Positions 831 to 18,098 of a DNA stretch of 20,160 bases are shown piece after piece (position 1 is the first letter of the stretch; every line of letters starts with the position of its first letter). The notes under the pieces are model-generated. The model did not search any database and was not told where the DNA came from. It saw nothing but the letters and a program-made list of their open reading frames with translations. The translations under genes and the position numbers were made by a program. Source of the DNA: a virus; IMG/VR virus record IMGVR_UViG_3300034407_003972, positions 1-20,160 of that record; one strand, written 5' to 3'.

Positions 831-838
831 ATAAATAT
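831..838 (-). promoter_or_regulatory. ATATTTAT late-promoter-like motif before the endolysin gene
   Basis: ATATTTAT on the coding strand ends 12 bases before the endolysin ATG, inside a 20-base gap between genes. The same octamer recurs in six other places, all in gaps. No TTTG box lies about 20 bases upstream. The assignment as a promoter is inference. Confidence 0.45.
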
Positions 839-1141
839 CTAAAAATTCAGTACACTACGAATTTCAGCTAAAGTATCATCATACTTTTGAACGTATTCTT
901 TAATAGAAGAATAATGAATTCTTTCATCACCTTTTTTCTTATTTAGAATAACTCTTACTGCACTACCTAAAGTAGATGGGTGTGAAATCACATCTACATA
1001 TGGGGTACCTGTAGTGTTAATGTCAACACATACATTGTATCCACCATGAGTATTCTTAGTGATAAAATACGGCTCTAGATTTTCGTCCATAATTGCCGTC
1101 TTATTTTTGATAAAATCCTCTCTTGTTGTTTGTTGCCTCAT
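839..1141 (-). CDS. Hypothetical protein, 100 aa
   Basis: I do not recognise this protein. It is soluble and mixed in charge, with no signal peptide or membrane segment. A run near residue 50 (TPYVDVISHPSTLGSAVRVI) suggests a compact alpha/beta fold; the C-terminal third is predicted helical. The ATG at 1141 is preceded by TAAGTT, a start context shared with several neighbours. A promoter-like site (TATATTTA) lies in the 43-base gap upstream, so this gene probably starts a transcript. Its stop codon is 20 bases before the endolysin start. No function is claimed. Confidence 0.75.
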   Translation of the reverse strand: MRQQTTREDFIKNKTAIMDENLEPYFITKNTHGGYNVCVDINTTGTPYVDVISHPSTLGSAVRVILNKKKGDERIHYSSIKEYVQKYDDTLAEIRSVLNF

Positions 1142-1156
1142 AACTTATTTATACTG

Positions 1157-1188
1157 TAAATATACGAAAAATATCTGAGGTATCCTAC
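1157..1188 (-). promoter_or_regulatory. Bacteroidota-type promoter, weak -33 box (GTAG-N20-TATATTTA)
   Basis: On the minus strand TATATTTA (1157-1164) is separated by 20 bases from GTAG (1185-1188), a poor match to TTTG. The sequence around the two elements, GGATAC and TTTCG, closely resembles the better site before 19537, so they are probably the same type. The -33 part overlaps the stop codon of the upstream gene. Confidence 0.4.
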
Positions 1189-1517
1189 TTATTCTGTAGT
1201 TTAGTTATCTCAGCTTTTAATTTCTTTAATTCCTTTATTTGGTCACTAGTATGTAAGTTCCCCATTGTCATTACTACTTTACATAACATAGTAGTAATAA
1301 TAATTAAACCTATACCCAACATAAACTCTTTTAAATCAGCTACTCTATTAGCCATAAGATAAACATAGGTTCCACTTACAAACATATTAATCATCATAGC
1401 ACTCATAATAAACATGAATACTGACTTTCCATCATATCTAAAAGACATCATTGTTAAAGTGATGTTTACAGGTAATAGTACTAAACCTAATCCTAATCCT
1501 AATAATAAACTATTCAT
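1185..1517 (-). CDS. Three-helix membrane protein with C-terminal coiled coil, 110 aa
   Basis: Unrecognised membrane protein. Hydrophobic segments at about residues 2-25, 32-55 and 65-86 are long enough to cross the membrane. Residues 91-110 (KELKKLKAEITKLQNK) form a short heptad-type amphipathic helix that probably lies in the cytoplasm and may oligomerise. The ATG overlaps the stop codon of the 24-aa membrane microprotein upstream, implying coupled translation. Size and topology would allow a holin or an inner-membrane exclusion protein, but no family motif supports either. Confidence 0.75.
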   Translation of the reverse strand: MNSLLLGLGLGLVLLPVNITLTMMSFRYDGKSVFMFIMSAMMINMFVSGTYVYLMANRVADLKEFMLGIGLIIITTMLCKVVMTMGNLHTSDQIKELKKLKAEITKLQNK

Positions 1518-1584
1518 CCTTTAAAATTAAATATAAAGCAATGTAAACAGTAAAAGCTAATACAAAAAATGCAAATTTTTCCAT
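1510..1584 (-). CDS. Single-pass membrane microprotein, 24 aa
   Basis: A short frame beginning MEKFAFFVLAFTVYIALYLI and ending LKDE: a single hydrophobic helix with a charged tail. It starts two bases after the stop of the upstream gene and overlaps the ATG of the next gene, exactly filling an otherwise empty 69-base gap in a densely packed operon. That packing is the main evidence; a frame this short could arise by chance. If translated it would sit in the inner membrane, perhaps with the three-helix protein encoded next. Confidence 0.45.
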   Translation of the reverse strand: MEKFAFFVLAFTVYIALYLILKDE

Positions 1585-1586
1585 GA

Positions 1587-1805
1587 TTATCTATTCCAAG
1601 GTCTAAAATCCTTATCTTTTTTTACAATTTTAGTTATTTTAGTATCACAAGCATATTCATGCCCATGCCAGTGTTTTTTAATTGAATTGATTGCTCCCGG
1701 TTTACTTTTAGCAAACACATACATTTTAGCAGGGAATAATGTTGGTTTATGTCCCCAATGTATCTCATAACATGTTTCACTTCTTTCCATCTGATGGTTT
1801 TTCAT
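1587..1805 (-). CDS. Hypothetical basic protein, 72 aa
   Basis: Unrecognised small protein, rich in Lys, His and Trp, with the motifs CYEIHWGHK and KKHWHGHEY; the histidines and two cysteines could bind metal, but no known finger is evident. Three in-frame ATGs are possible (1814, 1805, 1790). I chose 1805 because GAGGA lies just before it; 1790 would leave the shortest overlap with the upstream gene, which ends at 1777. No signal peptide or membrane segment. Confidence 0.65.
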   Translation of the reverse strand: MKNHQMERSETCYEIHWGHKPTLFPAKMYVFAKSKPGAINSIKKHWHGHEYACDTKITKIVKKDKDFRPWNR

Positions 1806-1920
1806 CTTCCTCACATAAAATTCGTTTCAACCCACTCCAAGCATTAAACTCTTCAGTTGATACTCTTAACCAAACATCTCCCACCACTTTAATTTCATAA
1901 ATTAGCTTATTCTTGCTCAT
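1777..1920 (-). CDS. Hypothetical protein, 47 aa
   Basis: Unrecognised protein beginning MSKNKLIYEIKVVGDVWLRV. An in-frame ATG exists further upstream (2004), but it would bury 98 bases inside the preceding gene; the ATG at 1920 leaves a 14-base overlap, typical for this operon. The product is a short beta-rich segment followed by a charged Glu/Asp/Lys tail. Function unknown. Confidence 0.6.
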   Translation of the reverse strand: MSKNKLIYEIKVVGDVWLRVSTEEFNAWSGLKRILCEEDEKPSDGKK

Positions 1921-2137
1921 TACCTTTATGTTTTGTTTTACGAGAATATTTAGTTTTATCTTTAACCGTCTGTTGAGTAGTTCGTTTACTGATATGGTGA
2001 GCAATCTCTCCCCTACTCATACCATCACCGGTTTGAATAAGTTTCCATTTACCATTTTCCTTATCCCTCACCCACTTAAATCCAGCTGGTGCAGGCGCAA
2101 AATCATGAAATTCCATATTTGGCTTATTAATACTCAT
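1907..2137 (-). CDS. Hypothetical basic protein, 76 aa
   Basis: Unrecognised. The N-terminal half carries FAPAPAGFKWVRDKENGKWK, a Pro- and Trp-rich stretch; the C-terminal third is strongly basic with many Lys/Thr (KTKYSRKTKHKGNEQE) and is probably disordered or nucleic-acid binding. The ATG at 2137 abuts the TAG TAA that closes the upstream gene, consistent with coupled translation. No membrane segment. Confidence 0.65.
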   Translation of the reverse strand: MSINKPNMEFHDFAPAPAGFKWVRDKENGKWKLIQTGDGMSRGEIAHHISKRTTQQTVKDKTKYSRKTKHKGNEQE

Positions 2138-2140
2138 TTA

Positions 2141-2347
2141 CTAAACGTATTTTTCCTCTCTATTTAAGGGATCCATTGTAGTTATATGTCCGTCTTCATA
2201 ATATAAAGTTACATGGTGTTGGGGATAATCCTTACGTGCTTCATTTATAACTTTATACAACGTTGACTCCGTATATTCTACATTCCAAGATACGGACTGA
2301 TTTTTGCTATTCCAAGGATCAAACGCAAATATTTGTAGTTTTTTCAT
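2141..2347 (-). CDS. Hypothetical protein, 68 aa
   Basis: Unrecognised soluble protein. It begins MKKLQIFAFDPWNSKNQSVS and has a probable helix followed by a strand-turn-strand (HHVTLYYEDGHITTMDP), suggesting a small alpha/beta fold. The start lies two bases after the stop of the upstream gene. No catalytic motif or export signal is visible. Confidence 0.65.
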   Translation of the reverse strand: MKKLQIFAFDPWNSKNQSVSWNVEYTESTLYKVINEARKDYPQHHVTLYYEDGHITTMDPLNREEKYV

Positions 2348-2349
2348 TT

Positions 2350-2508
2350 TTAATTATTATCAAACCACCACATTCGTCTTTGTTGGCTTTCGCCTTCCAA
2401 ACGATAGTGAACCATACCATCTCCCATGTCAACTACACACCAGTCAACTTTCTTAAGGAATTTATCTTCTAAGTACTTACGTACAAACGGATTTTGTTCT
2501 TTAATCAT
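2350..2508 (-). CDS. Hypothetical protein, 52 aa
   Basis: Unrecognised protein beginning MIKEQNPFVRKYLEDKFLKK and ending with an aromatic tail, RRMWWFDNN. A longer frame starts at 2544, but ATG 2508 overlaps the upstream stop by only eight bases (AATGATTAA) and is preferred. Basic first half, beta-like second half (VDWCVVDMGDGMVHYRL). Confidence 0.65.
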   Translation of the reverse strand: MIKEQNPFVRKYLEDKFLKKVDWCVVDMGDGMVHYRLEGESQQRRMWWFDNN

Positions 2509-2722
2509 TTTTTTCTTCAATTGTAAACTCAGTACTGTCGTCAATGATTTTGTCTCGAACTAAATCCATATTTATTTCGAATTCTTCAGAATAAAGATCA
2601 TAAAATGCATCTTCATCATTTTCTAATAAATCATCTAATTTATCAGCCTGCTCGTCTGTTACATCAACAGCATACCAACAAATAGTTGTATAAACTTCTC
2701 TTTTTACTAATCGTTTTGCCAT
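2501..2722 (-). CDS. Hypothetical acidic protein, 73 aa
   Basis: Unrecognised. A basic start (MAKRLVKREVYTTICWYAVD) is followed by a long acidic region with Asp/Glu clusters around residues 23-55. The strand-then-acidic-helix layout resembles small phage regulators or inhibitors in general, but no specific family can be named. TAAGTT directly precedes the ATG, as before 1141 and 4123. Overlaps the downstream gene by eight bases. Confidence 0.7.
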   Translation of the reverse strand: MAKRLVKREVYTTICWYAVDVTDEQADKLDDLLENDEDAFYDLYSEEFEINMDLVRDKIIDDSTEFTIEEKND

Positions 2723-2725
2723 AAC

Positions 2726-2929
2726 TTACTTTTTATTTTTACGAGGTCGTCCTCTACGCTTCTTACCTTTAGCAGCGTCAACTACATCACATGCTTGGTT
2801 ACCCACTTCCTTAAGTGAAGCACCAACGTCCTTAAGCTCCTCTTTTACTCGCTTAGCACGCTCAATTACAATGTCATCAACTTCTGTTTTACTCCAAAGC
2901 TTTTTCCACAATCGTTTAAAAATATTCAT
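2726..2929 (-). CDS. Small basic protein with C-terminal AT-hook-like motif, 67 aa
   Basis: An amphipathic N-terminus (MNIFKRLWKKLWSK) is followed by a Val/Ala/Glu/Lys-rich helix at about 17-55 and a basic tail, GKKRRGRPRKNKK, containing RGRPRK, the core of an AT-hook that binds the minor groove of AT-rich DNA. Similar short proteins with a helical middle and a Lys/Arg/Gly tail are familiar to me from marine T4-like phages, without known function. DNA binding is inferred from the tail. Starts one base from the neighbouring stop. Confidence 0.7.
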   Translation of the reverse strand: MNIFKRLWKKLWSKTEVDDIVIERAKRVKEELKDVGASLKEVGNQACDVVDAAKGKKRRGRPRKNKK

Positions 2930-2930
2930 A

Positions 2931-3274: not shown

Positions 3275-3275
3275 A

Positions 3276-3452: not shown

Positions 3453-3455
3453 AAT

Positions 3456-3626: not shown

Positions 3627-3629
3627 TGT

Positions 3630-4123: not shown

Positions 4124-4126
4124 AAC

Positions 4127-5073: not shown

Positions 5074-5081
5074 ATAAATAT
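5074..5081 (-). promoter_or_regulatory. ATATTTAT motif overlapping the -7 element before 5062
   Basis: The octamer found in front of structural genes also occurs here, merged with a full TTTG-N20-TATATTTA site. This gene may therefore be read by both kinds of promoter activity. Inference. Confidence 0.35.
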
Positions 5082-5106
5082 ACTAACCAATTTTGTGTTT
5101 TCCAAA
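5075..5106 (-). promoter_or_regulatory. Bacteroidota-type promoter TTTG-N20-TATATTTA
   Basis: TTTG (5103-5106) and TATATTTA (5075-5082) are separated by exactly 20 bases in the 51-base gap between stop 5114 and the start at 5062. This matches the known Bacteroidota -33 TTTG / -7 TAnnTTTG pattern except for the last base. The leader would be only about 8 bases. Confidence 0.65.
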
Positions 5107-5784: not shown

Positions 5785-6830
5785 TTTATCAAAGTATAAT
5801 TTAAACCAACACTAAATTTATGCCAACTTCTATTCCAGTACTTATGATAAGTACCTTCAGTAAAGATTCCTAACTGTTTTGTTAGCTTCCATCCAAAAAT
5901 AAATCCACCACCATAATCAACCCAGTTTTTATTTCCAATAGATCTTCTATATGAATACTCACTCTTAAGTGGAATGTGATAAGGTATTACACTACCCCAA
6001 GTATGTACCCAAAAGTCTTTAGTGTAATGATATAAGTCAAATCCTGCTATTAAACTATGATTCCATTGTACAGGTAATTCAGATTCTTTTTTAACCACAT
6101 AATCATCTAGTACGTCTGGAATAACAACTTGTTCCCATACTTCAGGTGATGTAGCTACTAATTCTCCATCTGGGTTAAAGAATTCTCCATTATCATAATC
6201 AACTGTATAGCCTTCTTGTAATGCAAGGTAAGTATAATGTAAATTACCATTATCTAATACCCATTCAGCTAAAGGATCATACCCATATGGTTCAGATATT
6301 CTTTGAACGAATCCAGCATTTAAAGAAAATTTAGTGCCTATCTTCCATCTAAATCTTTGAGATGCTTCAAAGTATTTAATATCAGCAAATCCATTTTGTA
6401 GATATTCAAATTTAGTTAACCACCAATCATCTACATATCTTAAGAAGTGATGCTGGTCTAGATAATTTTGTCCTAATAATCTTCTGTATTGGAATAAGGA
6501 TAAGAATTCAAATCCAGATACTTTACCAATAGTAGCAGCATCACCATAAGATTGCTCAGTACCATCATAAAATACTTTAGCTCTATTTTCATATCCAAAT
6601 CTAGCTATCTTTCTAGCACCTACGCTTACTGAAAAGTCAAATGGTGTTTTAGCTGTTTGTTGCAGTAATGTTCCTGTCGCAACAGAATAAGTATTTACAT
6701 CAGCAATAGAGTTACCTCCATTGATAGCTCCATAAATAGTGGAGTACTTAAATGCACTCTTAATTTTCGGACCAACTTGAGCGTTTGCTATACTAACACA
6801 AAGTACTAATATTAAAGTAATTAATCTCAT
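5781..6830 (-). CDS. Outer-membrane beta-barrel-like protein, 349 aa
   Basis: A clean signal peptide at 1-18 (MRLITLILVLCVSIANAQ) is followed by aromatic-rich alternating strands with polar turns throughout, for example FDFSVSVGARKIARFGYENR, RFRWKIGTKFSLNAGFVQRI, NWVDYGGGFIFGWKL and the ending HKFSVGLNYTLIK. Strand pattern, aromatic girdle (many Tyr/Trp) and a hydrophobic final strand point to an outer-membrane beta-barrel; the terminal Lys is less usual than Phe/Tyr. No TonB box or plug. Phages rarely encode such a protein. Possible roles are receptor masking (superinfection exclusion), altered permeability or outer-membrane weakening at lysis. ATGA overlaps link it to the T9SS cargo gene and the coiled-coil gene. 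Confidence 0.7.
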   Translation of the reverse strand: MRLITLILVLCVSIANAQVGPKIKSAFKYSTIYGAINGGNSIADVNTYSVATGTLLQQTAKTPFDFSVSVGARKIARFGYENRAKVFYDGTEQSYGDAATIGKVSGFEFLSLFQYRRLLGQNYLDQHHFLRYVDDWWLTKFEYLQNGFADIKYFEASQRFRWKIGTKFSLNAGFVQRISEPYGYDPLAEWVLDNGNLHYTYLALQEGYTVDYDNGEFFNPDGELVATSPEVWEQVVIPDVLDDYVVKKESELPVQWNHSLIAGFDLYHYTKDFWVHTWGSVIPYHIPLKSEYSYRRSIGNKNWVDYGGGFIFGWKLTKQLGIFTEGTYHKYWNRSWHKFSVGLNYTLIK

Positions 6831-9295
6831 TCTTTTACTATTGTTTTAATTAATGTTCTACCATTAAATGTCATTACTATATTATAAGTTCCAGCTGCTA
6901 CATCAGATAAATCTATCTCTCTAGGATTATTTTTACTGATAATAACTTGACCTACTATATCTTTTACTTCAACTTTTACTTCCATATCAGTAACAATATT
7001 CAAAGTAGTTCCAACTGGATTAGGATAAACTATAATCTGATTAGGTTTTACATCTGGAAGACCTACTATATCTTGTTGGTCATTACAAACATTATACATT
7101 TCTTGGCATGTTTCATCCCAATTATTATCACAGCAATAATCATCAACTGAAATAACCCAAGCATAACATTGATCATTTAACCAGTATGGATTACCAGGTC
7201 CATCAATACAATCAGCTGCATATAAGCAAGTATCTGGAACGTTAGCATCAGGATCAAAATTATATGCTGAAGCATCCATGCAACCATAAACAGGAATAAT
7301 ACACCCTCCATTATCAACATTTGCTGTTGAGTCATAATTTAGTGCTGTAGGATCTGTACAACCAAATACTGCTAAGGTATAACAAAACTCTTCTGACCAA
7401 TAATCTACTAACGAACTATCAGCTAAATAATATTCTAAGTATCCTGGATTAGAACAAGCTGGTGTGTAATAGCATGAGCCGTCATTAACGTTAGCTGAAT
7501 CTACAAAGTTATAAGCTAGAGAGTCAGTACAACCATATACTTTAGGAATACAATAGTCTCCACAGTATGGAACTCCTTTATATCTAAAAGGAAACTCTTT
7601 GATAGGATCCGTCCATATGTTAGTTCCACCTTGTACTACAGTATCGCCTTCCGGACCTATTAGATAAAAGCCACATTGATCAGCTGAGAAGCCTCCTCCA
7701 CCTTCTGTAAAGAAGAATACTTCAACTTCTTTATTTGCTCTTAGATTTAGAGTAAATGTTTCAGAAATACCATCTTGTGGTCCCATCGTATATCTTGATG
7801 ATATCCAGTTACCTTGTTTTACACCAATCCAGTTACCAAACCAACCATCACCTACTCCATCGGTTATTACTAATGTATAATCACATTCTGGGATGAAGTC
7901 TGGTGTATTAGCAGTTGAATCATAGTTAATTGAATTACTATCTAAACAGCCATACACTTTCAAAGTTTGACAAGCTGGTATGATATTATGAGTAGCTAGA
8001 GGATTATATTCTACATAATTAGAATCAGTACAGCCAAATATTGGCCCTCCAGGATTACAAGGAACCATATTATATAATAAGGATGAATCTACAAATCCAA
8101 AATCTGCATCACCAGGATATAGTTCATAGATTGTATCACAATTACCTTTAGTAACTAATACTTCACCATCTATACCTCCAAAACATGAACCACATAGTCC
8201 GTCTCCAAATTCATCATATAATATAAATTGATATTGACTATTATTTGGTATACAAAGTCTATCCACATAAGTAGTATTACCTTCTTCAAATGGACCTGCT
8301 TGTCCTATAATACTATCATTTTGATCTCTTACTTCCCATTTAGTTTCTTGAGGGTATTGATCAGTTGTTAATTCGATTTCAAGTACTTCACAGCCAGGTG
8401 GACAGGTAATTAAGCAAGTACCATCATCATAATTAGCCCATGGATTCCAGTTAGGTGATGTAGGATCCGTACAACCTGGAATAGCTCCACAAGGTAAGCA
8501 TGATTCCCAACAATATAATGGAAGTACTGTATCACTTTCTAAATCTAATATTCTATTAACGAATCCAAATTCTTCTTCAAAGCATTCATTGTCTTCTCCT
8601 ATAAATGGTAATTCTTGTATATTCCAATTATCTGCTGAGAACTTCCAAGGATAAACTCCTCTTTCTATCTGTAAGGTAGTTTCCCAAATACCATTACCCA
8701 TATCAGTCATTTGGTTACATTCTCCACACCATCCATTGAATACCCCATTTACTTCAGGTGTATCTAAAGGAGGTGCTATAGATACATCTAATCTGAATGT
8801 AACATCATAAATGTATTCGCAAGCAGTTCCAAATAAATCCCATGTAGCAGTTGAATCATAATTAGATGAAGCAGGATCTGAGCATCCTATTATTGGTAAG
8901 AGACATGGATTAGATACAGTAAATGGATACTCCCATTCACTCCAATTAGTATAATCTGGTAAAACTGTAGTGCTAATTTGACCGCACCAATTACCGACAA
9001 AGAAATCTACTTCATCATTTGGTATACTATCGAATCCATTTCCAGCAGCATCCTCTAACCATAGTACATAATCACCTATATTAGGTAGTTCAATGTATTC
9101 AATAATTTCAGTTCGTTGACCTGGAGGTCCATAATTACCTCCTTCATCAATAGTATCTCCAGTTGCTACTTCTTCTACGTACCAAGAAAATTCTTCGGGG
9201 TGAGTATCAGTTTCCAACCTAAATGCTACCCAGCTTGTTTGAGCTGATAGAAATAAAGGTAAAAATGTAAGTAATGTTAATAAATTCTTTATCAT
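6827..9295 (-). CDS. Large secreted multidomain protein with type IX secretion C-terminal signal, 822 aa
   Basis: Signal peptide 1-19 (ending LSAQ) sends it to the periplasm. Two to three beta-domains of the type TxxxPxExxWxVxD...DGxGDG (20-125, 305-395, about 470-560) alternate with seven GC(T/S/L/M)D..A.NY...A repeats (137, 274, 421, 449, 588, 645, 671). Residues 180-230 (VNGVFNGWCGECNQM...WKFSADNW) resemble a carbohydrate-binding E-set domain. Near 717-730 is DDYCCDNNWDETC. Residues 754-822 are a Por_Secre_tail-like domain, IIVYPNPVGTTLNI ... GTYNIVMTFNGRTLIKTIVK, the T9SS sorting signal. So it should cross the outer membrane through host T9SS and be attached or released. About 30 cysteines imply disulphides. 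ATGA overlaps at both ends. Confidence 0.85.
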   Translation of the reverse strand: MIKNLLTLLTFLPLFLSAQTSWVAFRLETDTHPEEFSWYVEEVATGDTIDEGGNYGPPGQRTEIIEYIELPNIGDYVLWLEDAAGNGFDSIPNDEVDFFVGNWCGQISTTVLPDYTNWSEWEYPFTVSNPCLLPIIGCSDPASSNYDSTATWDLFGTACEYIYDVTFRLDVSIAPPLDTPEVNGVFNGWCGECNQMTDMGNGIWETTLQIERGVYPWKFSADNWNIQELPFIGEDNECFEEEFGFVNRILDLESDTVLPLYCWESCLPCGAIPGCTDPTSPNWNPWANYDDGTCLITCPPGCEVLEIELTTDQYPQETKWEVRDQNDSIIGQAGPFEEGNTTYVDRLCIPNNSQYQFILYDEFGDGLCGSCFGGIDGEVLVTKGNCDTIYELYPGDADFGFVDSSLLYNMVPCNPGGPIFGCTDSNYVEYNPLATHNIIPACQTLKVYGCLDSNSINYDSTANTPDFIPECDYTLVITDGVGDGWFGNWIGVKQGNWISSRYTMGPQDGISETFTLNLRANKEVEVFFFTEGGGGFSADQCGFYLIGPEGDTVVQGGTNIWTDPIKEFPFRYKGVPYCGDYCIPKVYGCTDSLAYNFVDSANVNDGSCYYTPACSNPGYLEYYLADSSLVDYWSEEFCYTLAVFGCTDPTALNYDSTANVDNGGCIIPVYGCMDASAYNFDPDANVPDTCLYAADCIDGPGNPYWLNDQCYAWVISVDDYCCDNNWDETCQEMYNVCNDQQDIVGLPDVKPNQIIVYPNPVGTTLNIVTDMEVKVEVKDIVGQVIISKNNPREIDLSDVAAGTYNIVMTFNGRTLIKTIVKE

Positions 9296-9519
9296 GATTT
9301 TGAGCCAAATATTTTTTCGGCTCCCGCAATTCCTAGAGAACCTAATGTTATTAAAACAAATGAATTGTAAATAAATTCATTAATAATTAAATCTTTTCCA
9401 CAGTACCCAGTAGCTAAATCTACTACTGCAAATATTACCATTATGGCAAATGATAAAAATCCAACAACGGATTTTTCATTTATATCATTTTTATCCCTAA
9501 ATAATTCTTTAATCCACAT
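9292..9519 (-). CDS. Two-helix membrane protein, holin-like, 75 aa
   Basis: MWIKELFRDKNDINEKSVVG is followed by helices at about 19-36 (VGFLSFAIMVIFAVVDLA) and 52-69 (NSFVLITLGSLGIAGAEK). Size and two-helix topology fit a class of small phage membrane proteins, some annotated as holins. A longer frame starts at 9543, but the ATG at 9519 has AAAGGA eight bases upstream and a shorter overlap with the holin-like gene, so it is preferred. The stop overlaps the ATG of the T9SS cargo. Confidence 0.65.
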   Translation of the reverse strand: MWIKELFRDKNDINEKSVVGFLSFAIMVIFAVVDLATGYCGKDLIINEFIYNSFVLITLGSLGIAGAEKIFGSKS

Positions 9520-9958
9520 TTCTTTTTCCTTTATGGTTGTCAATTTTATCTAAAATTTCGTTTAATAACTCCATTTTAATAAAACCAGCCATAGAGGCGT
9601 TTTTCAATGCAGAGATGATTTGAAAAACCATGAATGGTAAAACTATAGTTTCGCTTAACCAGGAAACTTTAAATGATACTTCTATACTTAATACTACAAA
9701 TAATATTAACCACCAAGTAAATACATTTCTTAACACTCTTAGGGCTTTGTATGTTTTAAACCCTTCACGCTTTACACCAGCTAATATACCAAAAAATCCA
9801 TCTAATAATACTACAAAACCAACAGATAAAAACTGTTCATTATAAGTCATAGTAATATTAAGGATATGGTCGCAAACGTAGCCCATGAATGCAGAGGAAG
9901 CTAGTATTACCTTTAATGGTAAAGGTAAATTTAAAATTTTTAGTAACGCTTCCTTCAT
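9509..9958 (-). CDS. Putative holin, Phage_holin_4-like, 149 aa
   Basis: Four hydrophobic segments (about 12-30, 44-62, 78-96, 100-118). The second contains VVLLDGFFGILAG, like the LxxLDxxxGxLxA motif of holin family 4, and the C-terminal SALKNASMAGFIKMELLNEI resembles that family's ENxxxLGxP helix followed by a charged tail. It would sit in the inner membrane and permeabilise it at lysis. The resemblance is by eye. It opens a six-gene coupled run and is preceded by an ATATTTAT motif. Confidence 0.6.
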   Translation of the reverse strand: MKEALLKILNLPLPLKVILASSAFMGYVCDHILNITMTYNEQFLSVGFVVLLDGFFGILAGVKREGFKTYKALRVLRNVFTWWLILFVVLSIEVSFKVSWLSETIVLPFMVFQIISALKNASMAGFIKMELLNEILDKIDNHKGKRNVD

Positions 9959-9982: not shown

Positions 9983-9990
9983 ATAAATAT
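9983..9990 (-). promoter_or_regulatory. ATATTTAT late-promoter-like motif before the holin-like gene
   Basis: Octamer in the 50-base gap between 10009 and 9958, 24 bases from the ATG. TATATTTA is present, but 20 bases upstream there is CACG rather than TTTG, so it lacks a -33 box. Confidence 0.45.
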
Positions 9991-10008: not shown

Positions 10009-11844
10009 TTACGTGTAAGTTCCGGATACTAATTCAGGAGTATACCCTTTAGTTGAGTTAATTGTTTGACCCTTCCGTAATGTTATACCCATATTAAATA
10101 CTGTTAGTGCAGTTTCTTTTTCACCATTAATAATACTAGCACCCTTCGCTCCTAATCCAATAACATATTGTTCGGATTTAGCATTTAGAGTAATAGTAAA
10201 GGAGCCTTTAAAATATATTGTTGTTTTCTTTGTATTTACTTTCTCACTATTTAATGCTGCTGGAATAATTTGACCATTAACCTGCCACGTAGTAACTCCT
10301 GTTTCTTTATCTACAGTTCCTTTATCTGCTATAGCCCATTGTATAGCACGTTCATCAGCCAATCTATCTATAGTATTTTTACCTCCACCACCAGCAGGTT
10401 GGTCTTCATATGCACCAGGTTTAGCAATAATTATAGTATCTTTATTACCAGAGACTATATCTACATATTCTCCTTCAATAGGTAAAGTGCGTCTAAAAGT
10501 AGCTTCCGCTACATAAGGAGCTTTTAAATTATTATCTATAACCCATATTTTGTACTCTGTGTTGTACCATAAAAATGTTGATTCTCCATTAATGGTTCCT
10601 GAATAGGTTGGTAAATCATTAATTTTAGTTTCTAAAGATCGAGTTAACTCTCCTTGAGCATATTTGTTTTCTCCTACTATAGTTACATAATCTACAGTAG
10701 TTGGATATAGATCAGATTGTTTATCTTCAGAAGGCGCTTCCTTATTATCTTCCCCTCTATAAATTTCACCTAAATTATCAAATTCAGCAGTTTCTTTATC
10801 TTTTAAAGTTTCAGCTCCAATTAATCCTTTTAAAGTTGATTTATCAGTAGATTCACTTTTAATTACAGTTTCTACTCTTCCTTTAGTATCTCTTTTAATA
10901 ATTCTATTTTGGGCCATAACTGATGTTACACCAAACTTAGTATCCATATTAGTATCATTAACAATCTCTTCTACTCTCGTTAATTGTATATCTAATTCTT
11001 CTCTAATAGCTTCAGCTTTAACTTCAGTCACACTATCATCTACTCTCATTAATTGATCTCTAAAATCATCTTTTTGAGTATCATTTACTGTATTAGTTTT
11101 AAAATCATTATCGTTACATAGAGTTCCTATTTGCTCATAAAAACTTTCTTTACCATCATCTAGAGTTTTTTCTGATGATGCCTGATTTACTGCTTCACCT
11201 GCTATTTCTGCTGCAGCTTCTAATGTAGTTGTTAATCCTACTACTTTAAGAAAATCAGCATCGTCTGCTGCTAAGTCAATAAAGTTTTCAGATTTCACTC
11301 TATTTCTTTTCTCTACAGGGATATCAATATCATATACTTTACTAGCAAATTCAAAGAAATCAGTAGTAGCTTCTTCTTCTGATTTACCACGATCCATTAT
11401 TGCTTTAATAGCAGTAGTAATAGGAGAGATGATAGTTGAACCTTTAGGAGCTTTTAATTTACCTGTAAATGCTACTCCTGTTACAGCATCTGTTCCTCCT
11501 GTTATTTCTATATCACCTAAAGGAATAAAATCAAATTTAAAGAACCCATTTGAGTCAGTGGTAGTAGTTACTCCTTCAGCTACAGCTAAAACTGTTGCAC
11601 CTGCAATAGGTCCATCAATCCCCTGACCTGAAAAACCCCCAAAAGCTGGTCCATTTCCTGAGGAACCTGCACCTAGTTTTTTTATCATTTGGAGATAAAG
11701 ATTTTCCTTTTCTCTCTTTTCAGCCTCAAATAAAGCTAATTCTTTTAAATATTTTTGCTTTGCTTCTTGAATTGAAAGACCAATATTATCTGGTCTTTGT
11801 AAAAATATTTGCCAAGATCCGGGATTAGGTACACCTAGTAACAT
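10009..11844 (-). CDS. Probable virion structural protein with carboxypeptidase-regulatory-like domain, 611 aa
   Basis: Begins MLLGVPNPGSWQIFLQRPDN, then a charged coiled coil (24-57), a start I associate with structural proteins of marine phages. Residues 62-76 are Gly-rich, and 75-147 (DGPIAGATVLAVAEGVTTTT, DSNGFFKFDFIPLGDIEI) match a CarboxypepD_reg-like beta-sandwich, a domain often used in surface-exposed attachment proteins. Residues about 150-400 are helical and charged; the C-terminal 200 residues are beta-rich with a Gly run (GGGGKN). No signal peptide. Tail or fibre-associated is the best guess. A late-type motif precedes it. Confidence 0.6.
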   Translation of the reverse strand: MLLGVPNPGSWQIFLQRPDNIGLSIQEAKQKYLKELALFEAEKREKENLYLQMIKKLGAGSSGNGPAFGGFSGQGIDGPIAGATVLAVAEGVTTTTDSNGFFKFDFIPLGDIEITGGTDAVTGVAFTGKLKAPKGSTIISPITTAIKAIMDRGKSEEEATTDFFEFASKVYDIDIPVEKRNRVKSENFIDLAADDADFLKVVGLTTTLEAAAEIAGEAVNQASSEKTLDDGKESFYEQIGTLCNDNDFKTNTVNDTQKDDFRDQLMRVDDSVTEVKAEAIREELDIQLTRVEEIVNDTNMDTKFGVTSVMAQNRIIKRDTKGRVETVIKSESTDKSTLKGLIGAETLKDKETAEFDNLGEIYRGEDNKEAPSEDKQSDLYPTTVDYVTIVGENKYAQGELTRSLETKINDLPTYSGTINGESTFLWYNTEYKIWVIDNNLKAPYVAEATFRRTLPIEGEYVDIVSGNKDTIIIAKPGAYEDQPAGGGGKNTIDRLADERAIQWAIADKGTVDKETGVTTWQVNGQIIPAALNSEKVNTKKTTIYFKGSFTITLNAKSEQYVIGLGAKGASIINGEKETALTVFNMGITLRKGQTINSTKGYTPELVSGTYT

Positions 11845-11859: not shown

Positions 11860-11867
11860 ATAAATAT
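11860..11867 (-). promoter_or_regulatory. ATATTTAT late-promoter-like motif before the 611-aa gene
   Basis: Octamer in the 23-base gap between 11868 and 11844, 15 bases from the ATG. No TTTG at the expected distance upstream. Confidence 0.45.
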
Positions 11868-12563: not shown

Positions 12564-12649
12564 AATAAATGTTTAATTGAAAAATATGGCTAGATTAAGC
12601 CGCGATATGTAATCGTTGGAAATACATATGAATAAGATGTTGTAAAACG

Positions 12650-12722
12650 TGACTCGGCTGGGGTTCGAACCCAGGACCCATACATTAAAAGTGTATTGCT
12701 CTACCAGCTGAGCTACCGAGTC
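12650..12722 (-). tRNA. tRNA-Lys (anticodon UUU)
   Basis: Folds by eye into a full cloverleaf of 73 nt: acceptor GACTCGG/CCGAGTC with discriminator A, D-arm GCTC/GAGC with AGCTGGTA loop, anticodon stem ATACA/TGTAT with loop CTTTTAA, T-arm CTGGG/CCCAG with TTCGAAC. No CCA is encoded. Its 5' end lies one base after the stop codon of the DUF6150-like gene, so it must be processed out of a longer transcript. It decodes AAA/AAG, codons frequent in this AT-rich DNA. Confidence 0.95.
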
Positions 12723-12723: not shown

Positions 12724-13026
12724 TTAGTAGGTCTCCCAAGGATTATTTACTCTAAAAACAAGTTTATCAGCTTGATATCTATAATCCACCCAAAATACTT
12801 TATAACGAGCTTGGTGGGGATAATCAACCATATACCAATGATGCCTTTGTTCATCGGCCTGAAATTGATAATCAGTTATCCAATATTTAATATCAGCTTG
12901 ATAGGGATAATCCACTTCATATAATAAAATATCTGCCTGATAAGCATAGTCTACCTCAAACATTGTTTGAGAAAAACTAATAAAAGGTAAAAATATTAAA
13001 GTAAAAAGTATATTTTTAATAAACAT
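12724..13026 (-). CDS. DUF6150-like exported repeat protein, 100 aa
   Basis: A signal peptide (MFIKNILFTLIFLPFISFSQ) precedes five to six tandem units of 13-14 residues: EVDYAYQAD, EVDYPYQAD, ITDYQFQAD, MVDYPHQAR, WVDYRYQAD and a degenerate VNNPWE. The VDYxxQAD repeat is the hallmark of DUF6150, small Bacteroidota proteins of unknown function, as I recall the family. The product should be periplasmic and beta-structured. The ATG at 13026 is chosen over a TTG six bases upstream; it lies two bases after the upstream stop. Confidence 0.75.
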   Translation of the reverse strand: MFIKNILFTLIFLPFISFSQTMFEVDYAYQADILLYEVDYPYQADIKYWITDYQFQADEQRHHWYMVDYPHQARYKVFWVDYRYQADKLVFRVNNPWETY

Positions 13027-13028
13027 AA

Positions 13029-13223
13029 TCAAAAATAGTTATAACCTACTATTACTACTGTAAAAATACCTACAATTAACATCAAAAAAAATCCAGTCAT
13101 CTTTACAAGAAAACTAGAGCTAATTGGGGTTTGTTCAGCATCAGCTTTAGTACCTTCTGATATTAAAGTATAAACTCCAATAGAAAATAAAGCTGTTACT
13201 AATGATGCTAAAAATCCTACCAT
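13029..13223 (-). CDS. Two-helix membrane protein, 64 aa
   Basis: Begins MVGFLASLVTALFSIGVYTL, then a polar loop (SEGTKADAEQTPISSS) and a second helix (GFFLMLIVGIFTVVIVGYNY). A longer frame reaches 13280, but that part overlaps another gene; ATG 13223 forms a TAATG junction with the upstream stop and is preferred. A hairpin membrane protein of this size could be a holin or antiholin, but no family signature confirms it. Confidence 0.65.
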   Translation of the reverse strand: MVGFLASLVTALFSIGVYTLISEGTKADAEQTPISSSFLVKMTGFFLMLIVGIFTVVIVGYNYF

Positions 13224-13393: not shown

Positions 13394-13419
13394 AGTATAA
13401 AATTAAAATTAAAAAATAG

Positions 13420-13491
13420 TACTCCCAGGAGGAATCGAACCTCCATCAAAGCTTTAGAAGAGCCTCGTTTTATCCGTTAAACTATGGGAGC
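13420..13491 (-). tRNA. tRNA-Arg (anticodon UCU)
   Basis: A 72-nt cloverleaf: acceptor GCTCCCA/TGGGAGT (one G-U pair) with discriminator A, D-arm GTTT/AAAC, anticodon stem AGGCT/AGCTT with loop CTTCTAA, T-arm GGAGG/CCTCC with TTCGATT. No encoded CCA. It begins nine bases after the nuclease gene's stop. It reads AGA/AGG, which dominate Arg codons here, complementing tRNA-Lys(UUU). Confidence 0.93.
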
Positions 13492-13851: not shown

Positions 13852-13855
13852 TATT

Positions 13856-14287
13856 TTAATGGTAATAAGCTAATAAATCAAGTTCCTTTTTTACTTTATT
13901 CCAATAGCATTTAGTTTTATGGTGACTACTGCCTGATGGTCCTCCATTCCAGCATCGTGCTATAGTCTCCCAATCTGAGTCAGAATGGTAGTACTCTCTC
14001 CAGATATGAAACATTTCAATTGATTTCGCTACACTAAGACGATCAGTATAAACATATCGGACATCATTTCCATTTTTTTCTTGGATGCGATTAACTTCTC
14101 TAACCATGATAGGCCATATCTGCAGTACTCCAACTGCCCAACCACGATCACCTTTAGCTGTAGAGTCACCTCTTGATTCAACTTGAATAATTGCTTCAAC
14201 TAAGCAGTCAATAGGCATATCTTCATATTGTGCTTGAGACACACTTAGAGATAAAAATAGTGGGATGGTCAATAATAATTTTTTCAT
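13856..14287 (-). CDS. Exported lytic transglycosylase-like (SLT) enzyme, 143 aa
   Basis: Signal peptide 1-20 (MKKLLLTIPLFLSLSVSQAQ). The mature domain has IIQVESRGD with the likely catalytic Glu37, AVGVLQIWP (the SLT GxxQI-type motif) and ARCWNGGP near 110-117 (like the AYNGGP motif). These mark a lysozyme-fold transglycosylase cutting the glycan backbone. It is compact and would act in the periplasm after Sec export. Preceded by a strong two-part promoter and an ACGTT-ATG start context. Confidence 0.85.
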   Translation of the reverse strand: MKKLLLTIPLFLSLSVSQAQYEDMPIDCLVEAIIQVESRGDSTAKGDRGWAVGVLQIWPIMVREVNRIQEKNGNDVRYVYTDRLSVAKSIEMFHIWREYYHSDSDWETIARCWNGGPSGSSHHKTKCYWNKVKKELDLLAYYH

Positions 14288-14300: not shown

Positions 14301-14332
14301 TAAATATACAAAACAATTCTAAAATAACCAAA
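14301..14332 (-). promoter_or_regulatory. Bacteroidota-type promoter TTTG-N20-TATATTTA
   Basis: TTTG (14329-14332) and TATATTTA (14301-14308) lie exactly 20 bases apart in the 63-base gap before the transglycosylase gene. Both flanking bases (G after TTTG, G before TATATTTA) match the sites before 5062 and 19537. Confidence 0.65.
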
Positions 14333-14350
14333 TTTATATTGGTTTTTCCC

Positions 14351-14587
14351 CTATAATGGGTTTAAGTATGTGTTCAAGGATTGTACTCCTGTAAAGCGTT
14401 TAACTTCTCTTCCGTCTTTAACTAATACAACTGTAGGAACACTTCTAACTCCATAGTCAGAAACTGTTTGAGCATCTGTATCAACATCAATTTTAGTTAC
14501 AGGGATAGTTTTACTTACTTGTTCCATTACGGGTTTTAGTGTTTGACAAGGCCCACACCATGAGGCACTGAAATAAAGATATTTCAT
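14351..14587 (-). CDS. Thioredoxin, 78 aa
   Basis: MKYLYFSASWCGPCQTLKPV carries the classical WCGPC redox site (C11, C14); IDVDTDAQTVSDYGVRSVPT contains the cis-Pro loop (P51), and VKDGREVKRFTG the final beta hairpin. At 78 residues it is shorter than cellular thioredoxins (about 105), lacking the first strand and helix, as phage versions often do. No export signal: a cytoplasmic reductant, perhaps for ribonucleotide reductase. ATGA overlap with the upstream gene. Confidence 0.9.
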   Translation of the reverse strand: MKYLYFSASWCGPCQTLKPVMEQVSKTIPVTKIDVDTDAQTVSDYGVRSVPTVVLVKDGREVKRFTGVQSLNTYLNPL

Positions 14588-14787
14588 AGTTCTGTTTCTT
14601 TAATTAATTCATTTCCTTTTTCTCTCAATAAATAAGCTGTATGATCTATTCCTAGTGGTTTAGCTTCAGACCAATCACTTGAATATTGAAATTTTCCTCT
14701 TTTAATACCTGTAAATACTTCCCCGTCTTGATTTAATACTACATACATTTCAGGGGCAACATACTTACGATATTTTCTCCTTTTCAT
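14584..14787 (-). CDS. Hypothetical protein, 67 aa
   Basis: A basic start (MKRRKYRKYVAPEMYVVLNQ) is followed by DGEVFTGIKRGKFQYSSDWS and EAKPLGIDHTAYLL. This pattern, a YVVLNxDGxVFTG strand pair and then DWxEAKPL, seems familiar from marine phage proteins without assigned function. The ATG is only four bases after a TATATTTA element, so the message could be nearly leaderless. Confidence 0.65.
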   Translation of the reverse strand: MKRRKYRKYVAPEMYVVLNQDGEVFTGIKRGKFQYSSDWSEAKPLGIDHTAYLLREKGNELIKETEL

Positions 14788-14791
14788 TATG

Positions 14792-14823
14792 TAAATATAA
14801 TAAAAAAAATTTAGATAACCAAA
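14792..14823 (-). promoter_or_regulatory. Bacteroidota-type promoter TTTG-N20-TATATTTA
   Basis: TTTG (14820-14823) and TATATTTA (14792-14799), spacing exactly 20 bases, fill the 40-base gap between the structural block and the thioredoxin pair. TATATTTA ends four bases before the ATG. Confidence 0.6.
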
Positions 14824-14827
14824 TAAA

Positions 14828-15472: not shown

Positions 15473-15486
15473 TATATATTTTTACT

Positions 15487-16839
15487 TTATATGGATATTT
15501 TTACATTTCCTGATCCGTCTCTATATAACCTACCTACTACACCAGGGTCGGAAGTAGGTAGATTTGTGAAATCAATACTAGCACCCACAATTTTTAAAGA
15601 ACCAGCTGAACCCGTAGATGTGGCACTACCACTTATATTGGCAGATGCAGTAACATTAGTGGTATTAACATTGGTTATAGTAGTAACATCTAAAGTAGAA
15701 GATTGTATGTGATCAAATGAGCCTGTTATACCAAATACTGTATTACTAGCGCTTACTAGGGATGCTGTTACGTTAGTAGTATTAACATTAGCTATAGTAA
15801 TGACATCCAGGGTGGAGGTTATTATATGATCAAATGAACCCGTTATACCAAACACAGTATTACTTGCGCTTACTAGGGATGCTGTTACGTTAGTAGTATT
15901 AACATTAGCTATAGTAATAACATCTAAAGTAGAGGTTGTTACATGATCAAAATAACCACTTATATATGATATATCACCACTTATACTTACATCAGCTGAA
16001 GCTGTTATAGGTTGTAAAGTTCCAGATCCTATGCGTATAGCTTTACCGAATATTTCTAATTTACTACCAGTTGATCCTAATTCTAAACTACCACTGATAA
16101 ATCTAGCAAATTGTCGTCCGTTTGAAGTAAATCCATTAGCTTCAATAAAACTAGCTGATATATGTTTAAATGAACCCGTTATTCCAAACGTATCCCCACT
16201 AGCACTAATATTTCCTTCAGCCTTAATATTACCTGATGCTGTAACATGGGTAGTATCCACATTAGCTATTTTAGTAACGGATAAAGTATCTCCCGAAAAT
16301 GTTATATCAGCATCATCTGATAAAAGACCATCCGCTCCTGCTAGAACTACACGCCCATTAGTTAAGGAGTCAGCAGTAAGTGTTTGTGCTCTAAAATCAA
16401 AACCTCCAATATCTAAATCATTAGCAGCAGTTAAACTAGAAATTTGATCAAATGTACCTCCTTCTATGTCGGCATGAGCAAAAACTCCCGATATAGCAGA
16501 CATTACACCACTGGCACTAATATTACCTCCAATGCCTGTTGCTGAATCAACTGAAGCTGTTATATGACCTATAATATGTTGGGAAGCTACAAACACATTA
16601 GAAGCTGTAATAGCATAGGAACCTGTTTTTGCTGTAAGAGTATCAACTTTACTAGAAGTAAAATCATTAAATGAAGCAGTAGTAAGATACCTAGATCCTG
16701 AATCTTCAGGAAATATGGCACTATCCATAAGGTTGTTAAGTTCTGCCCTTAACTTGAATGGAGTGATTTGTCCCGTATTATTATTGGGTAAATTGTTTTG
16801 AAAACTTTGGGATAATGCTGTTCTACTTAGTGAGCTCAT
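15487..16839 (-). CDS. Repeat-rich fibre-like virion structural protein, 450 aa
   Basis: The N-terminus MSSLSRTALSQSFQNNLPNN, then FKLRAELNNLMDSAIF, probably docks on the virion. The rest is beta-repeat sequence rich in TAS, SASG and TGSF. Three 39-residue units reading VITIANVNTTNVTASLVSAS then NTVFGITGSFDHI lie near the C-terminus, two of them almost identical in DNA. The last 29 residues match those of the 214-aa protein. This suggests a long fibre with expandable shaft and a conserved tip or trimerisation motif. No chaperone or lectin domain recognised. Two ATATTTAT motifs precede the gene. Confidence 0.7.
   Translation of the reverse strand: MSSLSRTALSQSFQNNLPNNNTGQITPFKLRAELNNLMDSAIFPEDSGSRYLTTASFNDFTSSKVDTLTAKTGSYAITASNVFVASQHIIGHITASVDSATGIGGNISASGVMSAISGVFAHADIEGGTFDQISSLTAANDLDIGGFDFRAQTLTADSLTNGRVVLAGADGLLSDDADITFSGDTLSVTKIANVDTTHVTASGNIKAEGNISASGDTFGITGSFKHISASFIEANGFTSNGRQFARFISGSLELGSTGSKLEIFGKAIRIGSGTLQPITASADVSISGDISYISGYFDHVTTSTLDVITIANVNTTNVTASLVSASNTVFGITGSFDHIITSTLDVITIANVNTTNVTASLVSASNTVFGITGSFDHIQSSTLDVTTITNVNTTNVTASANISGSATSTGSAGSLKIVGASIDFTNLPTSDPGVVGRLYRDGSGNVKISI
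15488..15565 (-). repeat. Shared C-terminal module, copy 2
   Basis: Second copy of the C-terminal module, at the end of the 450-aa gene, 659 bases from copy 1. Direct orientation, so it could support recombination between the two fibre genes. Confidence 0.85.
15711..15944 (-). repeat. 117-bp in-frame tandem repeat in fibre gene
   Basis: Two full copies (15711-15827, 15828-15944) differ at a handful of positions; degenerate copies flank them on both sides. The period of 117 bases is 39 codons, so copy number can change without frameshift. Confidence 0.9.
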
Positions 16840-16847
16840 TTTTAGGT

Positions 16848-16855
16848 ATAAATAT
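16848..16855 (-). promoter_or_regulatory. ATATTTAT motif, proximal copy, before the 450-aa fibre gene
   Basis: Nearer of two octamers in the 36-base gap, eight bases before the ATG; TTTG is absent upstream. Confidence 0.45.
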
Positions 16856-16859
16856 AGTT

Positions 16860-16867
16860 ATAAATAT
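16860..16867 (-). promoter_or_regulatory. ATATTTAT motif, distal copy, before the 450-aa fibre gene
   Basis: Second octamer, 12 bases upstream of the proximal one. Such doubling may raise expression or may be a remnant. Confidence 0.4.
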
Positions 16868-16875
16868 TAGTAAAA

Positions 16876-17667
16876 TTATGTTCTTTTATTAAGTACTAAA
16901 GTAAGAAGACTAGATACCATACTATATACATGTCTAGAAAATCCATTACTAAATCCTGAACTAAAGGCATTAGGATCAAATCTACCTATTGCAGTTACAA
17001 CGTCTGTACTTTGTATGGTGAACCCTACAGAATCTCTTATAAAAGCTACTTCTACCCGTGCATTACTAAGCTCTACTATTTCCCTTACAGTAGTATGAGG
17101 CATTAAAACCCCATTTACGTAATATTGAAAATCATGTTTTTCTAAAGGAGGAAAACCTTCAGGTTGAGGAGCAAAAAAAGCAGGTTGAAATCTAACTACG
17201 TCACATTGGGTAACAGTTCCATCTGCATCAACAAATTGAGCAGGGGTTACTGTATTAGATGAAAGTTCAACTCTAGTATCTAAATACTCTAGTATAGGAG
17301 TTAATTCAAAAGCAGGGTGAATACTACCTGTTATACCCCCAGATACATTTAATGATCCTGTTATAACAGCGGAACCAGTAATAGTAGTAGAACCTGTAAT
17401 AATAGTAGAATCAGAAATTATAGTAGTTGTAGAACCAGATATAATAGTTGAACCCGTTATAAATGTAGGTCCACCTATAGAAGTACGACCTATCACATCC
17501 ATAGAACCTGATACAATAGCTGAGCCTGTGAAGGGTACAGAAAGACCAGGTCCAGTATCTCCTTTTACTCCTTGGGGTCCTTGAGCTGTTACAGTTACTA
17601 TTTGGGTGTTACCCTGTGTTACTGTAACCTGGTTAGTAGTAGTATTTACATTAACTTGGTTAGCCAT
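16876..17667 (-). CDS. Structural protein with collagen-like and ITGS beta-repeats, 263 aa
   Basis: After MANQVNVNTTTNQVTVTQGN there is a short collagen-like GPQGVKGDTGPG (30-41). Residues 47-115 contain many ITGS/ISGS units (FITGSTIISGSTTTIISDS, TIITGSTTITGSAVITGS), the pattern of a beta-solenoid or triple beta-helix shaft. The C-terminal 140 residues are a globular domain (PAQFVDADGTVTQCDVVRFQ; FQYYVNGVLMPHTTVREIVE). The layout, stem then head, suits a tail fibre, whisker or collar protein. It overlaps the BppU-like gene by eight bases. Confidence 0.65.
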   Translation of the reverse strand: MANQVNVNTTTNQVTVTQGNTQIVTVTAQGPQGVKGDTGPGLSVPFTGSAIVSGSMDVIGRTSIGGPTFITGSTIISGSTTTIISDSTIITGSTTITGSAVITGSLNVSGGITGSIHPAFELTPILEYLDTRVELSSNTVTPAQFVDADGTVTQCDVVRFQPAFFAPQPEGFPPLEKHDFQYYVNGVLMPHTTVREIVELSNARVEVAFIRDSVGFTIQSTDVVTAIGRFDPNAFSSGFSNGFSRHVYSMVSSLLTLVLNKRT

Positions 17668-18076
17668 TTTTTGGATTAATAAGAGTTACTTGGGAGGTAT
17701 TTCTAACTTTACCTTCTACTAATCTAATTCTTTCCTGACCATTGGTAAGTTCTAAATCATAAAAGGCTTCATCAAAAGTAAATTCATTAGTTACTGCGTG
17801 TCCTATGTATACTCCTATAGAACCTGAAGATAGGGGATCAGTTAAACTACTGCCAGATAGGGATAAAAATGAACCACTTGCATTTTTAGCATAGGTATCA
17901 CCTAATGAAGAGGTTAAAGTTGCATAAAGAATTGGGCCATTTTTTAGATTTCTAATCTGCATGGCAGCTTCTCTTCCGCGTAAATTTACAGGAACACCAT
18001 CTGAGTCTTTAAATATTATTTCAAAATCAGTAGTAGCACCTTGTTCAATAGTAAAGGAGAATTTTCCCGCCGACAT
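17660..18076 (-). CDS. BppU-like baseplate/tail structural protein, 138 aa
   Basis: FTIEQGATTDFEIIFKDSDG, VPVNLRGREAAMQIRN and the later FYDLELTNGQERIRLVEGKV match a widespread phage beta-sandwich (N-terminal domain of BppU-type proteins) with the pattern QGxTxxxxxxxxDxxGxPxxLxGxxaxMQIR...YDLExT...xRLxEGxV. Such domains attach receptor-binding fibres to the baseplate, and the fibre-like genes directly downstream agree with that. Length 138 is close to a single domain. A late-type motif lies upstream. Confidence 0.65.
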   Translation of the reverse strand: MSAGKFSFTIEQGATTDFEIIFKDSDGVPVNLRGREAAMQIRNLKNGPILYATLTSSLGDTYAKNASGSFLSLSGSSLTDPLSSGSIGVYIGHAVTNEFTFDEAFYDLELTNGQERIRLVEGKVRNTSQVTLINPKNG

Positions 18077-18090
18077 ATCTATGTTTATTC

Positions 18091-18098
18091 ATAAATAT
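18091..18098 (-). promoter_or_regulatory. ATATTTAT late-promoter-like motif before the BppU-like gene
   Basis: Octamer in the 21-base gap between 18098 and 18076, overlapping the upstream stop by one base, 14 bases from the ATG. No -33 box seen. Confidence 0.45.

Follow-up and report, generated by a model that had tools for sequence, protein, structure and literature searches.

Late promoters of bacteriophage T4 are read by gp55 together with gp33 and gp45. T4-type late promoters comprise a single AT-rich octamer placed about one helical turn before the transcription start, with no -35 element and with an A/T-rich region downstream (PMC2988020). In the flavobacterial host context, the F. psychrophilum sigma-A recognizes the element TAnnTTTG at positions -12 to -5 (PMC9723704). 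No paper on late promoters of Flavobacterium phages was found in a search mostly outside subscription journals. The octamer described here resembles the late promoters of T4, the Straboviridae and cyanophages, being a single AT-rich box without a -35 partner, followed by A/T-rich DNA and located before predicted late genes, and the phages that carry it share with T4 the gp17/gp20/gp23 gene set. However, the coding-strand box reads TATTTATA/ATATTTAT in these phages and TATAAATA in T4, TATTTATA being the exact reverse complement of the T4 box, as the initial annotation of this DNA had pointed out.

The window, i.e., the whole stretch of 20,160 nt that was analyzed, was scanned on both strands for ATATTTAT. 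All likely genes of the window lie on the minus strand, which is therefore the coding strand, and the motif, its strand and its location, as computed here, disclose the following features:

3..818, running past the window end, minus strand: endolysin gene, amidase and PG-binding (PF01510/PF01471)
831..838, minus strand: candidate late box ATATTTAT, ending 12 nt before the endolysin ATG
5074..5081, minus strand: candidate composite box ATATTTAT, ending 11 nt before the ATG of a 223-aa gene; T precedes the box, TTG at exactly 24 nt
5103..5105, minus strand: TTG (-33-like) element of the candidate composite promoter at 5074
9509..9958, minus strand: holin gene (PF05105 / phrog_199)
9983..9990, minus strand: candidate late box ATATTTAT, ending 24 nt before the ATG of the holin gene
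10009..11844, minus strand: 611-aa gene, weak match to a carboxypeptidase-regulatory-like domain
11860..11867, minus strand: candidate late box ATATTTAT, ending 15 nt before the ATG of the 611-aa gene
15487..16839, minus strand: 450-aa repetitive, fibre-like gene, no family match
16848..16855, minus strand: candidate late box ATATTTAT, proximal copy of a tandem pair, ending 8 nt before the ATG of the fibre-like gene
16860..16867, minus strand: candidate late box ATATTTAT, distal copy of the tandem pair, ending 20 nt before the same ATG
17660..18076, minus strand: 138-aa gene, PHROG_1084, function unknown
18091..18098, minus strand: candidate late box ATATTTAT, ending 14 nt before the ATG of the PHROG_1084 gene

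The seven positions given in the initial annotation, 8-24 nt before an ATG and in gaps, were recovered, except that the first A of the 18091 box lies in the preceding stop codon. Its statement that no coding-strand copy occurs inside window genes also holds, the sole plus-strand copy (2568-2575) lying antisense within the gene at 2501-2722. As for the genes downstream, the lysin (831) and the holin (9983) belong to recognized families, but the label 'structural' was partly inference, since family profile searches gave no structural family match for the fibre-like, 611-aa and 223-aa genes. The box before the 611-aa gene is kept in front of its orthologue in three related contigs (G001, G002 and G003), the distal copy of the tandem pair (16860) is the one kept in G003, and a late box precedes the PHROG_1084 gene in 11 of 12 genomes despite differing flanks.

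The raw count of ATATTTAT in the window is unremarkable (8 versus 5.8 expected; 22 of 100 shuffles reach 8). Nevertheless, six copies lie wholly within the 740 nt of window gap, versus 0.41 expected, a number reached by none of 5000 shuffles, and the reverse complement is absent from the window gaps (0 copies). Chance or AT composition as the source of the octamer is thus ruled out by gap location, although the raw count is insignificant. The window was then compared with 12 related contigs, a set of 609 kb in which every confidently called gene lies on one strand. The strand-by-strand count of genic and gap copies and the upstream motif discovery, both suggested in the initial annotation, agree: the coding strand carries ATATTTAT 159 times in gaps and 43 times within genes, versus 7 and 30 on the opposite strand, and with a 64-fold gap enrichment the octamer ranks first among all 8-mers. 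In the same set, ATATTTATA occurs 112 times in gaps and 13 times within genes, with no reverse complement in gaps. In some motif counts the reversed pattern shares letters with the motif or equals it, so that the control columns offer no independent comparison. Run blind on T4, the same script returned as its top 8-mer TATAAATA, the known T4 late box, which serves as a positive control.

The alignment of 158 sites defines an extended motif comprising (A/C)TATTTATA and an A-rich start region, with no box at -33. In the logo, the box is followed directly on its 3' side by an A/T-rich segment, A(A/G)A, a purine-rich signature, stands 11-13 nt away from the first A, and these sites display no conserved element upstream of the box, neither at -35/-33 nor elsewhere. 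The median distance from late box to start is 18 nt; for some boxes, the next called start is 80-480 nt away, in part an effect of the simple script used for start calling. Terminators before late boxes are not significantly enriched compared with other gaps.

The gene-class bias was computed across annotated functions: a late box precedes 54 of 100 virion genes versus 3 of 77 replication/nucleotide genes (Fisher 6e-14). The nearest isolate to the window lineage is Flavobacterium phage immuto (Immutovirus, NC_055915), whose terminase is 57% identical to that of G001 and which displays the same late box; the terminase tree is a near-polytomy and shows only the window group and the immuto group as close relatives. 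The early boxes of immuto, 12 in number, are confined to 20-77 kb; of its 37 late boxes, 25 fall at 81-160 kb. In contrast to the window group, which uses almost only ATATTTAT, the immuto clade employs CTATTTAT as frequently as ATATTTAT. MCP gp23 and the protease family have no boxes of their own; if the boxes drive late genes, these genes must be read through from upstream.

Taken at sequence level, these features make it very likely that the octamer is the late promoter core of flavobacterial T4-like myoviruses, probably read by a gp55-like phage sigma factor. The consensus (A/C)TATTTATA with its A-rich start region would serve a large T4-like myovirus lineage of Flavobacteriia and relatives; the box would occupy the -10/-7 position without a -33/-35 partner, RNA would start at the box, and the genes driven late in infection would be those for virion and lysis proteins. 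The initial annotation proposed that a phage sigma factor recognizes these boxes as late promoters; this is supported by strand specificity, confinement to gaps, lack of a -33 element, virion and lysis genes downstream, and a sigma-like protein in the lineage.

A second, separate promoter class was computed in the same phages, TTG-N20-TATATTTA(G/A), which matches host sigma-A promoters. Within the window this class comprises:

14301..14308, minus strand: early box TATATTTA, TTG at 14329-14331, before the SLT-domain gene 13856-14287
14792..14799, minus strand: early box TATATTTA, TTG at 14820-14822, before the gene 14584-14787
19566..19573, minus strand: early box TATATTTA, TTG at 19594-19596, before the gene 19280-19537

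The early genes would thus use ordinary Bacteroidota sigma-A promoters, TTG-N20-TATATTTA, and those of immuto would include a gene block ending with the sigma gene. This class bears on the best-surviving alternative, that host RNA polymerase, unmodified though possibly aided by an activator, uses the boxes as mere variants of its sigma-A -7 element (TAnnTTTG). The AT-rich -7 region of Bacteroidota sigma-A promoters (TTG / TAnnTTTG) does overlap the late box, as the initial annotation noted, the F. psychrophilum element TAnnTTTG fits (PMC9723704), and ATATTTA is common to late and early boxes; yet the full -7/-33 host signature is found on the early promoters of the same phages and not on these boxes. 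A TTG lies exactly 24 nt upstream of 71 of 81 and 17 of 33 early-type boxes versus 7 of 159 late boxes, and T precedes 75 of 81 early-type boxes, whereas late boxes of the window group show near-uniform base usage at this position. Late boxes have neither the -33 TTG nor the conserved first T of the -7 box; their last base is T where early boxes have G/A, and the genes that follow them belong to another class. The sigma-A pattern (TTG at about -33 with a TAnnTTTG-type -7) is absent from six of the seven window sites and present at 5074, which had been singled out as an exception with an upstream box; the exception is sharper than claimed, its TTG standing exactly 24 nt before the box, the early-promoter spacing. 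The 5074 site looks composite, in that it would also fit a host sigma-A promoter, and in the immuto clade a TTG at 24 nt accompanies 15 of 88 ATATTTAT sites, both in favor of host sigma-A. Against it, CTATTTAT, as common as ATATTTAT in that clade, breaks the TA of TAnnTTTG, and the host-promoter explanation is on balance improbable.

It is very unlikely that the octamer is instead an mRNA element, a translation enhancer or processing site ahead of the start codon, in a phylum whose mRNAs lack Shine-Dalgarno sequences. The median distance of 18 nt to the start, the A-rich region after the box and the lack of SD sequences in Bacteroidota (PMC6847099) agree with such a role, but the distance from box to ATG varies widely while A(A/G)A is fixed relative to the box, tandem boxes exist, replication genes needing the same ribosomes have no box, and T4, analyzed blind, returns a known promoter built in the same way. 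Comparably little probability attaches to a middle/late promoter read by host sigma-A with a MotA-like phage activator, in which immuto gp118, the candidate sigma factor described below, would have another role: the similarity of gp118 to gp55 is weak and its link to the box indirect, but the 158 aligned sites contain no conserved activator site upstream of the box, and sigma region 2 is the best explanation of the gp118 family. Finally, a T4-type late promoter TATAAATA in the opposite direction, making antisense RNA, is suggested by the exact reverse complementarity of TATTTATA but ruled out by the gap counts, with the ATATTTATA reverse complement absent from gaps, by the location of all confident genes of the 13 sequences on one strand, and by the position of the box, directly ahead of the start codons of this same strand.

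If a phage sigma factor reads the late promoter, the phages should encode one, and the search for a gp55-like gene proposed in the initial annotation found the immuto gp118 family in the lineage. The protein gp118 (KNV73_gp118) is annotated as 'hypothetical' and forms part of a core family for which IMG/VR contains more than 500 relatives; the family members comprise about 230-250 aa, with sigma-70 region 2 and a C-terminal helical domain. Profile comparisons match the family to T4 gp55 and Sigma-70 region 2: (i) it ranks first of 139 families against gp55, and a separate hhalign comparison gives E 2e-5; (ii) the gp55 HMM matches window-clade members at E 3e-4; (iii) Sigma70_r2 is matched by 27 of 32 members (best 5e-5), with the printed score of one member, L306, at 21.5, below the Pfam curated cut-off of 24 bits; and (iv) the PHROG late sigma is matched by 23 and the PHROG sigma factor by 13 of the 32, gp118 being the only PHROG_234 match in immuto. 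Against PDB, the profile of alignment A3 gave no match and that of A1 weak DinB-like matches only. The homology to gp55 is weak and profile-based, but repeated and top-ranked. In the alignment with T4 gp55, F86 and Y97 are retained by the family, as is an acidic residue at each of E70 and D74, positions with functional roles in gp55 (PMC7892883), whereas Y and G stand opposite the pocket residues H95 and T99; the protein is also larger than gp55, with an extra conserved C-terminal part.

The neighborhood of the sigma-like gene, computed alongside the family, is conserved: in 18 of 19 genomes, the stop codon of the gp118-family gene is followed at 5-19 nt by a late box. The window and its nearest contigs G001-G003 do not cover the sigma locus, and the gene was not seen there; the direct gp55 search of window-group contigs gave no match, as the sequence of G011 begins five genes past the locus on its downstream side. 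In a contig whose baseplate gene is identical to that of the window-clade contig G011, a gp118-family gene occupies the predicted place. A weak match to the gp118 profile at G003:732-1334 was discarded as a short coiled stretch. Mel-JY01, which encodes a distant gp118 relative, yields ATATTTAT by the same method. An unrecognized protein of these viruses, a distant relative of gp55, probably reads the late box; we infer that the gp118-family sigma, bound to host RNA polymerase, would recognize it on melted DNA. A bacterial-type RNA polymerase beta subunit (RNA_pol_Rpb2_6) was not found, with all 14 controls positive, and the search for a T7-type RNA polymerase ran without a positive control. 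The T4-type sliding clamp (PF02916) was found in T4 (control 3e-35) and not in immuto, G013, G014 or Mel-JY01. A further, less probable reading is that a large lineage of T4-like phages of Flavobacteriia would run its late genes with a two-domain gp55 relative that reads TATTTATA and works without such a clamp, in a clamp-independent late transcription to which the sigma adds its own C-terminal domain.

Altogether, the analysis provides a promoter code, early and late, for widespread and little-studied flavobacterial myoviruses, and assigns the role of probable late sigma factor to a core 'hypothetical' family that has hundreds of relatives in IMG/VR. Two questions thereby become accessible to direct testing: how box specificity changes among gp55-like factors, and whether the coupling of late transcription to replication through the clamp is universal in T4-like phages.

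Seven coding-strand (minus) copies of the octamer ATATTTAT are present in the window, at exactly the positions recorded in the initial annotation (831, 5074, 9983, 11860, 16848, 16860 and 18091) and, as claimed there, 8-24 nt from an ATG and never within a gene on that strand, the sole further copy (2568-2575, plus strand) being antisense within a gene. In this complete 20,160-base IMG/VR record, which has no larger genome behind it, the raw octamer number is about the chance level; its placement is non-random, with six copies wholly in gaps (740 nt; 0.41 expected) and at least six such copies in none of 5000 dinucleotide shuffles of the window.

Two protein scans gathered related contigs of 17-100 kb, twelve of which were taken whole, each with all confident genes on a single strand; together with the window they comprise 609 kb, including 32 kb of gap, with gene starts in the relatives called by a simple script. 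The strand-wise genic and intergenic count proposed in the initial annotation favours coding-strand gaps, with 159 gap and 43 genic copies of ATATTTAT versus 7 and 30 on the opposite strand, and this is the most gap-enriched of all 8-mers in the pooled set. ATATTTATA occurs there 112 times in gaps and 13 times in genes, its reverse complement being absent from gaps. Aligned late-box sites display no upstream element and a near-random base preceding the box; counted from the first A of the box, an A/purine-rich stretch follows at 11-13 nt, where RNA would start if the box occupies about -12 to -4.

The closest isolate is the 160-kb Flavobacterium phage immuto (57% terminase identity to the window-group contig G001), with 31 octamer copies on the coding strand and 4 on the opposite strand. 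Its boxes fall into two classes: (i) (A/C)TATTTAT(A/T) precedes terminase, gp20, sheath, tube, hub, tape measure and tail spike, and (ii) TTG-N20-TATATTTAG precedes small early-type genes, with none in the immuto virion region. TTG starts exactly 24 nt upstream of the A of the box in 71/81 and 17/33 early-type boxes across genomes, and at that distance from 7 of the 159 ATATTTAT boxes of the window group. The early class matches the -7 box of flavobacterial sigma-A promoters (TAnnTTTG, -12 to -5; PMC9723704); early promoters are present in three window gaps, and site 5074 is composite, combining a late box with early-class features. Late boxes stand ahead of 54/100 virion genes versus 3/77 replication/nucleotide genes (Fisher 6e-14), and one is retained ahead of the PHROG_1084 gene in 11 of 12 genomes. 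A blind k-mer test yields ATATTTAT in phage Mel-JY01; the identical test on T4, as positive control, ranks its known late promoter, TATAAATA, first.

The search for a gp55-like sigma gene, also proposed initially, identified the family of immuto gp118, a 'hypothetical' protein, as a match to gp55 and Sigma70_r2. PHROG_234 (T4 gp55 family) has one weak match in immuto, gp118 (E 0.008), which a home-made gp55 profile also places first, and of 139 protein families in these genomes, that of gp118 matches gp55 best. gp118 is a core protein whose IMG/VR relatives number over 500, the closest sharing about 60-90% identity; distant homologues occur in Mel-JY01 and in a phage of 484 kb. The gp118-type locus lies outside the window; by synteny, the window-group contig G011 starts five genes downstream of the expected locus, and a scan with its baseplate gene retrieved a contig carrying an identical gene plus a gp118 homologue at the predicted place. 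Window-group members match gp55 better than immuto gp118 does (gp55 HMM E down to 2.6e-4; hhalign E 1.9e-5). Sigma70_r2 is matched by 27/32 members (best 5.1e-5), PHROG late sigma by 23/32 and PHROG sigma factor by 13/32.

In gp55, E70 and D74 contact the polymerase clamp and F86 and Y97 form DNA pockets (PMC7892883); in a weak hhalign alignment these pair with D, E, F and Y of the gp118 family. In the same weak alignment H95 and T99 pair with Y and G, a replacement that would fit an altered box. A late box lies 5-19 nt past the stop codon of the sigma-like gene in 18/19 genomes (e.g. L306:1556-2299, L064:28174-28872 and relatives), and the closest early box in immuto is about 1.9 kb upstream of the gene, which together suggest that the sigma would be expressed early, with the first late promoter directly after it.

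G001 displays a T4-like gene set (terminase, portal, gp23-type capsid, maturation protease, tail sheath), in addition to DnaB-type helicase, UvsX-like recombinase, ssDNA-binding protein, ribonucleotide reductase and queuosine genes. Queuosine/7-deazaguanine genes (QueC, QueD, QueE, FolE, QueF, DpdA) at L063 28-37 kb and G001 57.5-61.6 kb suggest base-modified DNA, a property that might affect how promoters are recognised. In the immuto clade (G013-G021, L063-L066), C and A are equally frequent at the first position of the late box, but nearly every window-group box starts with A, a clade-specific shift in predicted box specificity. Mel-JY01 (PP395634) was deposited as a Microcystis phage, an assignment that may be wrong because its gap motif CGTATATT is Bacteroidota-like and its terminase and gp118-like protein have relatives in flavobacterial phages. 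Other window genes comprise:

6827-9295, minus strand, phage protein of 822 aa whose C-terminus carries a type IX secretion sorting domain (PF18962, E 6e-8)
12649-12722, phage tRNA-Lys(ttt) gene
12724-13032, minus strand, 102-aa protein made of repeats like 'VDYPYQAD'
13419-13491, phage tRNA-Arg(tct) gene

The sorting domain and repeated 'GCTDP..NYD..A' units of the 822-aa protein suggest export via the host type IX system.

The predicted late system would work like T4 late transcription, but the box sequence differs and no T4-type clamp was found in immuto, G013, G014 or Mel-JY01 (T4 as positive control), so membership in the T4 type is partial; a bacterial-type polymerase beta subunit was likewise not found. 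The initial reading of a late promoter recognised by a phage sigma factor is supported: in a lineage of T4-like flavobacterial phages, the octamers are predicted to act as late promoters with a variant box, and a gp55-like protein is newly proposed as their sigma.
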